The position numbers and the translations under genes are program-made. A stretch of 58,374 nucleotides of DNA from Terriglobia bacterium. GTDB lineage: Bacteria; Acidobacteriota; Terriglobia; Bryobacterales; Bryobacteraceae. A model generated the notes under the pieces. That model had not been told where the DNA came from. It did not search any database and worked only from the letters and a program-made list of their open reading frames with translations. Location of the stretch: the NCBI GenBank assembly GCA_020073445.1, contig JAIQFE010000037.1, positions 1 to 58,374 on the forward strand. Reading direction: 5' to 3'. Positions 6,662 to 10,234 of this stretch are shown piece after piece (positions within the stretch are counted from its first letter, which is position 1; every line of letters starts with the position of its first letter).

Positions 6662-7333
6662 ATGCCGACCAGCCGTCATGAACGGGCTTTCCGGCGCGCT
6701 GGATACCGGGCTATCGCGGGGCTGGATGAAGCCGGCCGCGGTGCGTTGTTCGGTCCGGTCTTCGCCGCAGCGGTGATCCTCGATCCGGAAAAACCAATTC
6801 GCGGGCTGGATGACAGCAAGCAACTGGCGCCGGAGCGGCGCGAGGTCCTTGCCCACCGAATCCGGGAGCGCGCCCAGTCCTGGGCCGTGGCGGCCGCGGA
6901 CGCCTTCGAAATCGATCACTGGAACATCTTGCAGGCCGCGCGTCTGGCCATGCGCCGCGCTGTGGAGAAACTGCCCTCGCCCTGCGATTGCCTGCTGGTG
7001 GACGCCGTCCGTGTCGACCTGCCCCTGCCGCAAAAGGCCCTGATCCACGGCGACGCGCTGTGCTTTTCGATTGCCGCTGCATCGATCCTGGCTAAGGTCG
7101 CCAGGGATGCCGCGCTACAGGCCTGGGATGCGGTCTTTCCTGAGTATCGCCTTAAGGACAATAAAGGCTATGGAACGCCCGAGCACCTGGCTGCGCTCGA
7201 GCGCCTGGGTCCGACTACGTTGCACCGATTCAGCTTCGAGCCGGTCCGGAACCTGAGCCGCTACCAACTTTGGACTGGCTATCCGATCCCGCTGCCCGTT
7301 CCTGAGCAAGGCGAGCTATTCGCATGTCCTTGA
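6662..7333 (+). CDS. rnhB: Ribonuclease HII
   Basis: A 223-residue enzyme that cuts RNA in RNA-DNA hybrids and removes single ribonucleotides from DNA. The active-site DE pair lies in AGLDEAGRGALFGPV near residue 20, with further acidic residues in LLVDAVRV and SILAKVARD. The family element NKGYGTPEH and the segment LHRFSFEPV are also present. The start ATG at 6662 is 19 bases after rplS. It overlaps the next small membrane-protein gene by 10 bases. Confidence 0.96.
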   Translation: MPTSRHERAFRRAGYRAIAGLDEAGRGALFGPVFAAAVILDPEKPIRGLDDSKQLAPERREVLAHRIRERAQSWAVAAADAFEIDHWNILQAARLAMRRAVEKLPSPCDCLLVDAVRVDLPLPQKALIHGDALCFSIAAASILAKVARDAALQAWDAVFPEYRLKDNKGYGTPEHLAALERLGPTTLHRFSFEPVRNLSRYQLWTGYPIPLPVPEQGELFACP

Positions 7334-7635
7334 CACCGGAGCCGGCCCCGGCTCCTGATTCCGTACCTCCCACCGGTGAAACCCGCCCGGCATCATCCAG
7401 AACCCCGCGTCTGCTCCGCCTTGTCTTCGCCATCTTCACCTTCGAAATCGGCCTCTTCCTGACCGTTTTCCCCTGGGTCGACATCTGGAGTCTGAACTAT
7501 TTCTCCGGATGGCTCCCGGCACTCGAAAACATCTGGGATGAGCCCTATTTTCGCGGCGCCATCACCGGCCTGGGTCTCGTAAATATTTACGTCGCTTGCG
7601 CGGAAGTGCTGCGATTGTTCCGCCGTTCCACTTAA
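7324..7635 (+). CDS. Small two-TM membrane protein
   Basis: A 103-residue protein. The first 28 residues are Pro/Ser-rich and cytoplasm-like, then come two hydrophobic segments (about 29-54, FAIFTFEIGLFLTVFPWVDIW; about 77-98, GAITGLGLVNIYVACAEVLRLF). It starts inside the end of rnhB (10-base overlap), so it is probably co-translated. I do not recognise a characterised family; small proteins in this position seem to occur in related Acidobacteria. The function is unknown. Confidence 0.75.
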   Translation: MSLTPEPAPAPDSVPPTGETRPASSRTPRLLRLVFAIFTFEIGLFLTVFPWVDIWSLNYFSGWLPALENIWDEPYFRGAITGLGLVNIYVACAEVLRLFRRST

Positions 7636-7714: not shown

Positions 7715-7777
7715 CTAGGGAAAAACCCTATTGACCCAAACCAAAGTACTGTCTATTATCTAGGGGAAAGCCCTTAG
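7715..7777 (+). promoter_or_regulatory. Strong promoter flanked by two TAGGG-N5-CCCTA hairpins
   Basis: A near-consensus sigma-70 promoter: -35 TTGACC at 7731-7736, a 17-base spacer and -10 TATTAT at 7754-7759. Directly upstream of the -35 is the inverted repeat TAGGG-AAAAA-CCCTA (7716-7730); directly downstream of the -10, across the likely transcription start, is TAGGG-GAAAG-CCCTTA (7761-7776). The two elements are 45 bases apart and look like operator copies. The first downstream gene is the repeat peptide at 7833. The bound regulator is unknown. Confidence 0.7.
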
Positions 7778-7832
7778 CTATTGGCTCAGTGTGTAGTGCT
7801 ATCAGGCCCGGCCGAGGGGAAAGGTGCAGGTA

Positions 7833-8078
7833 ATGACAAAATTTCGTAGTTCTTATGCTACAATTTGCGCAGTTCTTGTTTTAGCGCTCACGATGGGCGC
7901 TATCGTGTCGCACGGGCCGGTTGCTCCTCCCGATGGCGACGGAGATGGCGGGAACATTATTTCACATGGGCCGGTTGCTCCTCCGGATGGTGACGGCGAC
8001 GGCGGAAACATCATCGCCCACGGACCGGTTGCGCCCCCGGACGGTGACGGCGACGGCGGAAACATTCGGCTGGTCTAG
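7833..8078 (+). CDS. Secreted peptide with three 18-residue tandem repeats
   Basis: An 81-residue protein with an N-terminal signal peptide (MTKFRSSYATICAVLVLALTMGA; cleavage likely about residue 23). Almost the whole mature part is three copies of SHGPVAPPDGDGDGGNII (residues 26-43, 44-61, 62-79; DNA 7908-8069), followed by LV. Each repeat contains DGDGDGG, similar to the DxDxDG metal-binding loop of EF-hand/dockerin proteins, and a Pro-rich HGPVAPP. The start is ATG at 7833; a GTG at 7824 in the same frame is an alternative. It stands alone behind the strong 7731 promoter and 57 bases before a 7-TM protein. I recognise no named family. It may be a structural, calcium-binding or signalling peptide, or a multi-core precursor. 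Confidence 0.75.
   Translation: MTKFRSSYATICAVLVLALTMGAIVSHGPVAPPDGDGDGGNIISHGPVAPPDGDGDGGNIIAHGPVAPPDGDGDGGNIRLV
7908..8069 (+). repeat. Three tandem 54-bp coding repeats
   Basis: Copies at 7908-7961, 7962-8015 and 8016-8069 encode the 18-residue peptide unit. Copy 1 and copy 2 differ at nine codons, all synonymous. Copy 2 and copy 3 differ at six synonymous codons plus the first (Ser to Ala) and last (Ile to Arg) residues. The repeats have therefore diverged at the DNA level while the peptide has been kept. Confidence 0.9.
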
Positions 8079-8135
8079 TTCTTTCCTAAAGGCAAAGGGC
8101 CAGTCCCGCGTCCTGTCGATTCAGGGTGAGGTGAT

Positions 8136-8837
8136 ATGGCCCTAAGCCAGCTTGTTCTGGAGGCAATTAGTATTGCCATCCAGTCTGCACTTATCTTCCT
8201 CCTCCTTCGGCGCTCTTCTTTCCGCCGCTATCCTCTTCTTCTTTTATATTGCGTTCTCCAACTGGTTGCCACGGCAGCCGAGGAGTATGTTTCTCGCATC
8301 CACGGGCAGCCGAATCTCTTTCGCAAGCTCTATTGGACCGATGAGATAACCCTCGATCTTGTGTTGTTCCTCATGGTGATCACGCTAATCTATCGAGCCC
8401 TGGAAGCGAGCCCCGTGCGGATCGCGATGGGTCGGCTGCTAGGGGCGGTCGTGGCCGTCGTGCTGGTCGTACCCTTTGTCCTTTTTAGCGCCCGCCGGTT
8501 CAGTACGAACTGGTTCGACGGCACCAGTCAACTGCTCAACTTCGGAGCGGCGATCCTGAATCTGGGCCTGTGGACGGCGCTCATCGCAACCAAAAAGCGC
8601 GACCCTCTTCTGCTCAAGGTCAGCGCTGGGCTGGGTGTGGCGGTAACCGGCGCCGCCATCGCTTACGGTCTCAGACGATACACGCCGCCCACCAGCACCC
8701 CACAGCAGTTGGCGAATCTGTTCAAGACCCTCACCTATCTCACCAGCGTCGCGATCTGGTGCTGGGCGTTCCGGCCCGCGGCGAAGAAGAACCCGGCTCC
8801 TCCAGCCACGGTCACTCCCTCGTCCGTTCAACTGTGA
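8136..8837 (+). CDS. Seven-TM integral membrane protein
   Basis: A 233-residue protein with about seven hydrophobic helices (roughly 4-22, 31-47, 71-88, 97-118, 130-150, 160-180 and 190-212) and a short Pro-rich hydrophilic tail. A conserved-looking loop EEYVSRIHGQPNLFRKLYWTDE lies between helices 2 and 3. It is not recognisable as a transporter, kinase or enzyme family; it looks like an uncharacterised acidobacterial membrane family. The ATG at 8136 has GTGAGGTGAT upstream. It follows the repeat peptide gene by 57 bases and its stop overlaps the GTG of the flavin oxidase gene (GTGA at 8834-8837), so the three are probably one operon. Confidence 0.75.
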   Translation: MALSQLVLEAISIAIQSALIFLLLRRSSFRRYPLLLLYCVLQLVATAAEEYVSRIHGQPNLFRKLYWTDEITLDLVLFLMVITLIYRALEASPVRIAMGRLLGAVVAVVLVVPFVLFSARRFSTNWFDGTSQLLNFGAAILNLGLWTALIATKKRDPLLLKVSAGLGVAVTGAAIAYGLRRYTPPTSTPQQLANLFKTLTYLTSVAIWCWAFRPAAKKNPAPPATVTPSSVQL

Positions 8838-10234
8838 AACTCGAGTATCGTGTCCGGAGAGAGCCATCCCGGCGCGATCTGCTTAAAGCTGCACTTGTTG
8901 TCACTGGATCGATTGCACTGAGCGCGGCGGGCCGCCCGCGCAAAAGAATCTTGATCGCCGGTGCCGGACTGGCGGGGCTCTCGGCGGCTTACGAATTGGT
9001 CCAGTCCGGCCACGACGTCACGGTGCTCGATGCTCGCGACCATCCCGGTGGGCGCGTGCTCACCTTGCGGGATACGTTCGCCGACGGCCAGTATGCCGAG
9101 GCAGGAGCCGAGACCTTCAGTGACACCCACAATTACGTTCAGCACTATGTTCAGGCGCTGCAGCTTGAAACGATTCCGGCCTGGAATTATGGAAAGCTGA
9201 CTTCGCTGGTCTTCCGGAACGGCCAAAGTTCCTCGTCAGCCTCTATTTCCGCGCTCTCTCGCAAGTACGTTGCGCCTGCCGTGAAGGAAATTGGCGATCC
9301 CCTCGCACCAGGCTGGCCCTCGGCCGATCTCCTTCGCCAATTCGATCGAGTCTCTATGGCCGAAATGCTGCAAAGCCGCGGCGCTTCGGCCGAGGAGATC
9401 GCGGCGCTCCAGGTCATCTACAGCGATTCCTGGGACAACGGGACCGCTCCAGATTCGGCGCTGTGCCTGCTGCGCGACGAAGCGATCGCGCGCAAGGGCG
9501 CGTCGTTTCGCATCCGCGGCGGCAATGACCGGCTTCCGAAGGCTCTGGCGCAAAGCCTCGGCGCGCGCGTCCACTACCGCACCACGCTCGAGCGCATCCA
9601 ACAAGACAACAAACGAGTGACCGTCGCTGTGAACACATCCGGACGCCGGAGCCACATCTCCGCGGATTATCTGATCTGCGCGATCCCGTTCACGGTGCTG
9701 CGCTCGATCGAGGTTTCGCCCGCGTTCAGCGAAGGCAAGCAGCGCGCCATCCGCGAGCTGAGCTACAACGCGGTGACTCGCGTGTACGTGCAATCGCCGG
9801 CCCGGTCCTGGGTCGCGGATGGACTGTCCGGCTATGCGGCTACCGATCTCCCGATCGGAACCGTGTGGGACTGCACGGAAGGTCAGCCCGGCGCGCGCGG
9901 AATCCTGGAATGCTACACGTCGGGCGAGCGCGCCCGGAGGCTGGCGTCGCTCTCCGAGCCGCAGCGCGTTCGCACGGTGGTCGAGAATCTTCAAAAAGTG
10001 TTTCCTGGCGTGAGCAACGAAAAATCGGCGTCGGTGGCCTGGGATGCCGATCCGCTGGTGAAAGGCGCATTCGCCTGGTTCAAGCGCGATCAGATGTCGA
10101 CACTGCTGCCGCACATCGCGCGCCGCGAGGGCCGGGTGTTCTTCGCGGGCGAGCATACTTCACCGTGGTTCGGCTGGATGCAGGGCGCGCTCGAATCCGG
10201 CAATCGCGCGGCTCATGAAGTAAACGAAGCCTAG
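8834..10234 (+). CDS. Exported FAD-dependent amine oxidase
   Basis: A 466-residue flavin amine oxidase-type protein. A twin-arginine-like leader (SRRDLLKAALVVTGSIALSAAG, residues about 12-33) precedes the Rossmann FAD motif GAGLAGLSAAYELVQSGHDVTVLDARDHPGGRV (from about 42). The C-terminal FAD-binding end is FFAGEHTSPWFGWMQGALESGNRAAHE. This family oxidises amines, such as amino acids or polyamines, with O2; the substrate here is unknown. The open frame runs back to 8570, but the GTG at 8834 is chosen because it overlaps the upstream stop and puts the Tat leader at the N-terminus. Its link to the peptide and 7-TM genes suggests extracytoplasmic work on the same pathway. Confidence 0.85.
   Translation: MKLEYRVRREPSRRDLLKAALVVTGSIALSAAGRPRKRILIAGAGLAGLSAAYELVQSGHDVTVLDARDHPGGRVLTLRDTFADGQYAEAGAETFSDTHNYVQHYVQALQLETIPAWNYGKLTSLVFRNGQSSSSASISALSRKYVAPAVKEIGDPLAPGWPSADLLRQFDRVSMAEMLQSRGASAEEIAALQVIYSDSWDNGTAPDSALCLLRDEAIARKGASFRIRGGNDRLPKALAQSLGARVHYRTTLERIQQDNKRVTVAVNTSGRRSHISADYLICAIPFTVLRSIEVSPAFSEGKQRAIRELSYNAVTRVYVQSPARSWVADGLSGYAATDLPIGTVWDCTEGQPGARGILECYTSGERARRLASLSEPQRVRTVVENLQKVFPGVSNEKSASVAWDADPLVKGAFAWFKRDQMSTLLPHIARREGRVFFAGEHTSPWFGWMQGALESGNRAAHEVNEA

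Follow-up and report, generated by a model that had tools for sequence, protein, structure and literature searches.

The window analyzed here is a stretch of 58,374 nucleotides (nt) from a Terriglobia bacterium of the phylum Acidobacteriota (contig JAIQFE010000037.1, positions 1 to 58,374, forward strand), and our subject is a pair of adjacent genes within it, one for a short exported repeat peptide and one for a seven-helix membrane protein (7TM). The two genes are inherited together as a conserved module. We consider that they probably encode a secreted ligand and its receptor and so form a peptide signaling module, for which cleavage, binding and output are inferred from the features described below.

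The precursor encoded in the window starts at the ATG at 7833 with MTKFRSSYATICAVLVLALTMGAIVS, in which the signal peptide was assigned by eye, and continues into three 18-residue units. The original prediction had described a signal-peptide protein consisting almost only of three such repeats, and this is what the open reading frame (ORF) at 7833-8078 contains. At the DNA level copies 2 and 3 are 83% and 74% identical to copy 1, with almost identical protein units (proportion of synonymous differences, pS, 0.585; of nonsynonymous differences, pN, 0.013). In 66 tandem arrays found upstream of 7TM genes, neighboring copies also differ mainly synonymously (pooled pS 0.289 vs pN 0.015), and pS exceeds pN in 66 of 66, a comparison in which the selection of arrays by protein repetition pushes pN down. 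Since silent differences are many and protein changes few, the copies appear to be old and each kept near one protein sequence; recent duplication or DNA homogenization is disfavored, because either would not leave this many silent differences. Units are 10 to 38 residues long (median 16, with doubled units as the longest), with a copy number of 1.3 to 11.7 (median 3.9) and a median proline fraction of 0.25. The unit differs among species, being HGPVAPPDGDGDGGN in the window and IGPTLPPNPWDEGPPKLT, SGPGPSVDGF, AGPWPFPDDSAGGNI and others elsewhere. The 44 arrays from the family of the window (f1) share the consensus aliphatic-Ala-[H/I/S]-G-P-x-x-P-P-D-P-W, whose first P is fixed by anchoring. 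Homology to RtxA repeats was rejected, with the Pfam match below cut-off (E 0.044). We also noticed that contigs break at the repeat array in L175, L199, L203, L204, L298, L307, L311 and other loci. Metagenome assembly therefore probably recovers such repeat-array genes incompletely.

Searches of 61 relatives located the 7TM in 29, with 22 of the 23 genomes of the window's genus among these. Sequence searches detected the peptide in 16 of the relatives, 13 of which have it next to the 7TM; the matches in G038 and G058 reach E 0.003 only and are perhaps due to chance, and G012 matches neither query. In G005 the peptide lies at the site of a degraded 7TM gene (L013); this genome has two further 7TM genes, with no peptide seen beside them. 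Other queries recovered more distant members of the 7TM in 108 of 150 genomes from another family (f8), 115 of 250 of the order and 75 of 299 of the class, and a phylum-wide profile search, in which seven candidates were scored per genome, found the 7TM in at least 6 of 396. Window-type 7TMs are present at 19 loci of named records, which are metagenome-assembled genomes of Bryobacterales, Terriglobia and Acidobacteria, Candidatus Sulfopaludibacter among them. One f8 7TM was also searched against plasmids, with no match.

The linkage between peptide and 7TM was read from 116 loci with one 7TM each, namely the window, 31 of 32 loci from the relatives search, 4 from the phylum search and 80 from the f8 and order searches; L084 (G057), where the 7TM query had no match, was excluded. 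In 66 of the 116, a script called a tandem-repeat ORF whose end lies no more than 450 nt 5' of the 7TM. Where more than 300 nt of upstream sequence is available the count is 63 of 107 loci, compared with 14 of 716 control genes. Of 42 loci with neither an array nor a contig edge, 20 are preceded by a short signal-peptide-like ORF containing two or more prolines, as are 41 of 706 control genes. By inspection, the 116 loci sort into the 66 script arrays, three additional arrays (L176, further upstream; L181, interrupted by N; L199, cut by the contig edge), 23 single-copy upstream peptides, three downstream peptides (L250, L251, L253), seven kinase-linked loci, nine with nothing seen beside the 7TM and five contig edges. 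These by-inspection classes carry no control of their own; the least sure are L073, L081, L227 and L231, which the script did not call, and L208 was called by the script yet counted as nothing seen. Another 20 loci, mainly second copies in f8 genomes, comprise 14 with a peptide, three with none and three that start at a contig end, and in G572 five 7TM genes are each paired with their own distinct peptide. A search of 250 genomes of the order for arrays of the PPDPW pattern gave 30 genomes with such an array (0 for a reversed-pattern control), and 27 of these 30 contain the 7TM, against 115 of 250 overall (Fisher p=1.2e-7, matched by hand). The array genomes with no 7TM match are G025, G700 and G731, which have peptide-like ORFs with signal-like starts, that of G700 at a contig end.

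Single-copy peptides are about 40-70 aa long. Where the peptide gene lies 3' of the 7TM (L250, L251, L253, L272, L273), the product has a C-terminal GGPxPxCxP-like motif and no repeats. The single-copy peptides of L235, L240, L241, L254 and similar f8 loci form a distinct peptide class, in which a TGTDP/SGTNPPP-like core is followed by a hydrophobic tail at the C-terminus, in some cases ending in LGL.

In sequence-distance comparisons, peptide and 7TM were shown to co-diverge beyond what their flanking genes account for. The Mantel r between the peptide and the outer half of the 7TM is 0.73 in the genus (n 19), 0.50 in f1 (n 42) and 0.49 in f8 (n 21). Across nine flanking-marker sets, r between peptide and 7TM is 0.48-0.81. 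Given the flanking marker, the partial r is 0.55, 0.56, 0.39, 0.62, 0.65 and 0.59 for six f1-dominated markers (n 8-12, p<=0.011), 0.39 for an AAA ATPase marker (p 0.091), and 0.19 and 0.29 for two f8 markers (p 0.044 and 0.030), and peptide against marker given the 7TM yields -0.18 to 0.19; the markers are raw ORFs, the sets share genomes, the p-values are uncorrected for multiple tests and the test is liberal. Two marker clusters were too small and were left out. Co-divergence specific to the outer half, which was the expected pattern, was not found, as r for the inner half is nearly equal. This equality counts in favor of another explanation, by which the 7TM would help to export, process or assemble the peptide, itself a product with a structural or surface role such as a proline-rich coat or a metal-binding polymer. 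Linkage and co-divergence would suit any dedicated partner, repeat proteins are often structural, and the units of 5 of the 66 arrays contain cysteine. We nevertheless regard such a role as unlikely: the precursor already carries a signal peptide, and in our judgment the 7TM alignments contain no obvious set of catalytic or metal-binding residues. A structural polymer is also a poor fit to the single-copy peptides, to units that stay alike across copy numbers of about 1 to 12, and to the kinase linkage described below.

AlphaFold models of the 7TM from two subfamilies show a seven-helix bundle (pLDDT 91.0 for the window protein and 89.9). The best-ranked Foldseek matches are mostly G protein-coupled receptors (GPCRs) and rhodopsins, with E-values that are not significant; further down the lists come ZnT1, Chs1, AziU and other helical proteins, and families missing from these lists are not thereby excluded. 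Counts of Lys and Arg place the N-terminus outside and the C-terminus inside, so that the predicted arrangement is GPCR/rhodopsin-like, N-out/C-in. The outer halves of the helices vary more than the inner halves (p=5e-5 and 1e-6). The conserved retinal-binding lysine of rhodopsins was not found in helix 7 of the alignments (residues 188-211), and no recognizable output domain was seen by eye in four long 7TM frames (G643, G478, G493, G501). Neither the 7TM nor the peptide has a match above the curated cut-offs of Pfam or NCBIfam, or any in PADLOC (E up to 0.01), and the 7TM therefore stands as the protein of no known family that had been described. PF07695 (7TMR-DISM) gives a weak match in 1 of 31 family members (E 0.0049). 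Ceramidase and EXPERA enzymes were rejected as candidates (Pfam E 0.047 and 0.98, below cut-off), as was a defense-system reading, given the lack of PADLOC matches. Comparison of the f1 and f8 profiles gave a probability of 98.7% and an E-value of 2.8e-16, which places the 7TMs of the two families in one superfamily. The original prediction had left the 7TM as exporter or receptor; of the alternatives offered, a receptor is the best supported.

Candidate output partners for such a receptor are encoded beside the 7TM in two groups. In the genus g311, a homolog of hybrid histidine kinases ends about 75-100 nt 5' of the 7TM in all seven loci examined (L182, L188, L191, L194, L197, L198, L200), and the kinase query had no match in the other 108 of 115 loci searched. 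These kinases diverge down to 33% identity, and the link between kinase and 7TM is accordingly old. The one kinase tested in Pfam has PAS matches and a receiver domain (PF00072, E 3.7e-17), with HisKA and HATPase below cut-off, and no membrane segment was found in it by hydropathy. No peptide was seen beside the 7TM in these seven loci. The array peptide is found elsewhere in two g311 genomes, between AAA ATPase and GFO/IDH genes in G594 and adjoining a GFO/IDH gene in G764; likewise, 7TM locus L206 of G732 has no peptide and the array lies elsewhere, beside an AAA ATPase gene. Because AAA ATPase and GFO/IDH genes are the neighbors that flank peptide-7TM pairs in other genera, it appears that in these lineages the 7TM moved and the peptide stayed. 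In f8, the 7TM is followed in 24 loci (e.g., L221, L227) by a conserved protein of about 175 aa that has a single membrane segment and otherwise looks helical. The one tested (L227) had no Pfam match, and a weak PADLOC match to JetA was obtained (E 0.004); this membrane-anchored helical protein is a possible output partner.

The kinase linkage is left unexplained if the peptide is a secreted bacteriocin and the 7TM its immunity protein, an explanation that has several points of its own. Class II bacteriocin/immunity pairs likewise consist of a small exported peptide and a membrane protein; in the present loci such a peptide adjoins the 7TM, the two co-diverge fast, and pairs duplicate together. 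In 9 of 105 clustered loci, including the window, a large permease ORF identified by eye as MacB/FtsX-like is found close to the 7TM. Typical bacteriocins are cationic, and here the two families differ: of the 21 f8 units 11 are net positive, 6 neutral and 4 negative, whereas 36 of the 44 f1 units are net negative. The 7TM is, moreover, near-universal in the window's genus, and its surroundings are housekeeping genes rather than accessory DNA, with aspS-like genes near it in 14 loci, trmD-like in 13 and rnhB-like in 10 (names by eye). Together with the lack of PADLOC matches, these observations make a bacteriocin improbable, more so than an export or assembly role.

The third gene of the window cassette is a flavin amine oxidase (PF01593, Pfam E 4.7e-69) that shares GTGA with the 7TM ORF at 8834-8837, as had been described. 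Its nearest solved structures are L-amino acid and amine oxidases, and a desaturase-named PADLOC model also matches (E 7.8e-47). A Tat signal is suggested by an SRRDLLK motif and a sub-threshold PF10518 match (16.6 bits, cut-off 22.7). In the original prediction this enzyme might modify the peptide, a multi-core ribosomal product that the exported flavoenzyme would oxidize, and the 7TM would either export the peptide or act as its receptor. The operon-like spacing and the overlap in the window are consistent with this, the oxidase is also 3' of the 7TM in G014 and G020, and another oxidoreductase gene (GFO/IDH/MocA, Tat-like start) follows the 7TM at a distance of at most two ORFs in 13 f1 loci (e.g., L055, L080, L082, L180). 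However, an oxidase homolog (tblastn E <= 1e-5) was found in only 3 of the 116 loci, whose flanks vary in length and are in some cases short, and these three (the window, G014, G020) are close relatives with 7TMs 79-83% identical. The predicted co-occurrence of the three genes in relatives was borne out for peptide and 7TM and failed for the oxidase, which we rejected as part of the unit and regard as a lineage-specific neighbor of the pair. With L-amino acid and amine oxidases as the nearest solved relatives of the enzyme, an oxidized peptide product is the least probable of the explanations considered, to the point of being scarcely credible. In the window a PadR-type regulator (PF03551) and then the permease-like ORF come after the oxidase gene.

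The features of the locus are collected in Table 1. The predicted near-consensus promoter between two TAGGG-N5-CCCTA-like boxes is present, the first box being perfect and the second imperfect. When upstream regions of 23 loci were compared, box 1 with TTGACC was found again 5' of the corresponding gene in G014, G019 and G020, where the -35 and spacing are as in the window and the -10 is a variant. A TAGGG box is present in G021, a sequence related to box 2 aligns in G014 and G020, and the pattern was not found in the remaining 18 of the 23. A search of the 6.58-Mb genome of the window for the box consensus, with at most 2 mismatches allowed, gave 7 matches, against 7 for a reversed-pattern control, hence no genome-wide enrichment; two of the seven are the window pair, 45 nt apart. 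The two boxes look like a local operator, and control of the promoter would then be local. Upstream of the peptide gene, the window encodes a 103-aa membrane protein (7324-7635) with no Pfam or NCBIfam match, and a similar protein was seen by eye upstream in G004, G022 and G005.

Table 1. Features of the peptide-7TM locus and its promoter (window coordinates)
Feature	Position	Strand	Description	Evidence
Box 1	7716..7730	+	Perfect palindrome TAGGG-AAAAA-CCCTA; abuts the -35 on its upstream side	Sequence
Sigma70-like promoter	7731..7759	+	TTGACC (7731-7736), 17-nt spacer, TATTAT (7754-7759); near-consensus	Sequence
Box 2	7760..7777	+	Imperfect palindrome CTAGGGGAAAGCCCTTAG; abuts the -10 on its downstream side	Sequence
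Peptide precursor gene	7833..8078	+	81 aa; signal peptide and three units [S/A]HGPVAPPDGDGDGGNI[I/R]	ORF, repeats, relatives, inter-copy selection
Three 54-nt repeat units	7908-7961, 7962-8015, 8016-8069	+		Repeat reading, pS/pN between copies
7-helix membrane protein (7TM) gene	8136..8837	+	233 aa; proposed peptide receptor	Predicted structure, family, topology
Flavin amine oxidase gene (PF01593)	8834..10234	+	Possible Tat signal; outside the conserved module	Pfam, structure relatives, locus counts

The closest parallel to the proposed ligand and receptor is found in fission yeast, where the map2 gene encodes the P-factor precursor with 4-8 tandem pheromone repeats in wild strains, units inside one map2 gene can differ, and both P-factor and its seven-helix GPCR Mam2 are very diverse among strains (PMC6342294). 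The likeness lies in an exported tandem-unit precursor, several ligand copies per gene, and a diverse pheromone and receptor. The yeast system is eukaryotic and G protein coupled, whereas the host here is bacterial, the output partner would not be a G protein, the genes for ligand and receptor usually lie side by side, and no sequence similarity is shown. Heterotrimeric G proteins are, to our knowledge, not known from bacteria. Traits of repeat pheromones seen in the present loci are exported near-identical units under unit selection (66/66 arrays), co-divergence of ligand and 7TM, and single-copy forms in some relatives.

Bacterial systems offer partial likenesses. Gram-positive peptide quorum sensing (agr, Com, Rap/Phr) also pairs a secreted peptide with an adjacent, co-evolving receptor gene, and a histidine kinase beside the receptor is seen here in g311. 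In those systems, however, either the kinase itself or a protein in the cytosol acts as the receptor, while here the receptor would be a stand-alone 7TM, with a tandem-unit precursor that has an ordinary signal peptide. 7TMR-DISM proteins are seven-helix bacterial membrane proteins thought to sense, but neither a periplasmic domain nor a fused output was seen in the present 7TM. Microbial rhodopsins are bacterial 7TM bundles with the N-terminus out and appear among the Foldseek matches, from which the 7TM differs in the missing lysine and the non-significant E-values. Class II bacteriocin/immunity pairs differ from the present pair in the features weighed above, namely its housekeeping surroundings, mostly acidic f1 units and kinase linkage in one genus.

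In the signaling module that we propose, the precursor would be exported through its predicted signal peptide, and release of its tandem units may yield multiple copies of a single short peptide rich in proline. The released peptide would bind the periplasmic side of the partner 7TM, whose more conserved cytoplasmic face would relay the signal to a cytoplasmic partner; the candidate is a soluble PAS/histidine-kinase/receiver protein in g311 and the membrane-anchored helical protein in the other family. The units are alike within a genome and unlike between species, which suggests a self or kin signal, comparable to fungal repeat-pheromone/GPCR pairs.

Acidobacteriota are abundant soil bacteria, and in openly licensed PMC papers we found no description of such a peptide/7TM pair, nor of any peptide communication system in this phylum. 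It is an evenly balanced question whether the pairs amount to a class-wide bacterial counterpart of peptide-hormone/GPCR signaling, that is, a Terriglobia superfamily of stand-alone seven-helix receptors, each with a rapidly diversifying secreted peptide, often in tandem, that reads self or kin and is coupled to two-component or other cytoplasmic partners. If peptide and 7TM are ligand and receptor, they would provide a large set of natural bacterial peptide/7TM pairs whose specificity is written in one short, synthesizable unit. A stand-alone 7TM would then serve as a bacterial peptide receptor, and its recognition of the peptide would be a bacterial parallel, convergent or not, to that between pheromones and GPCRs.

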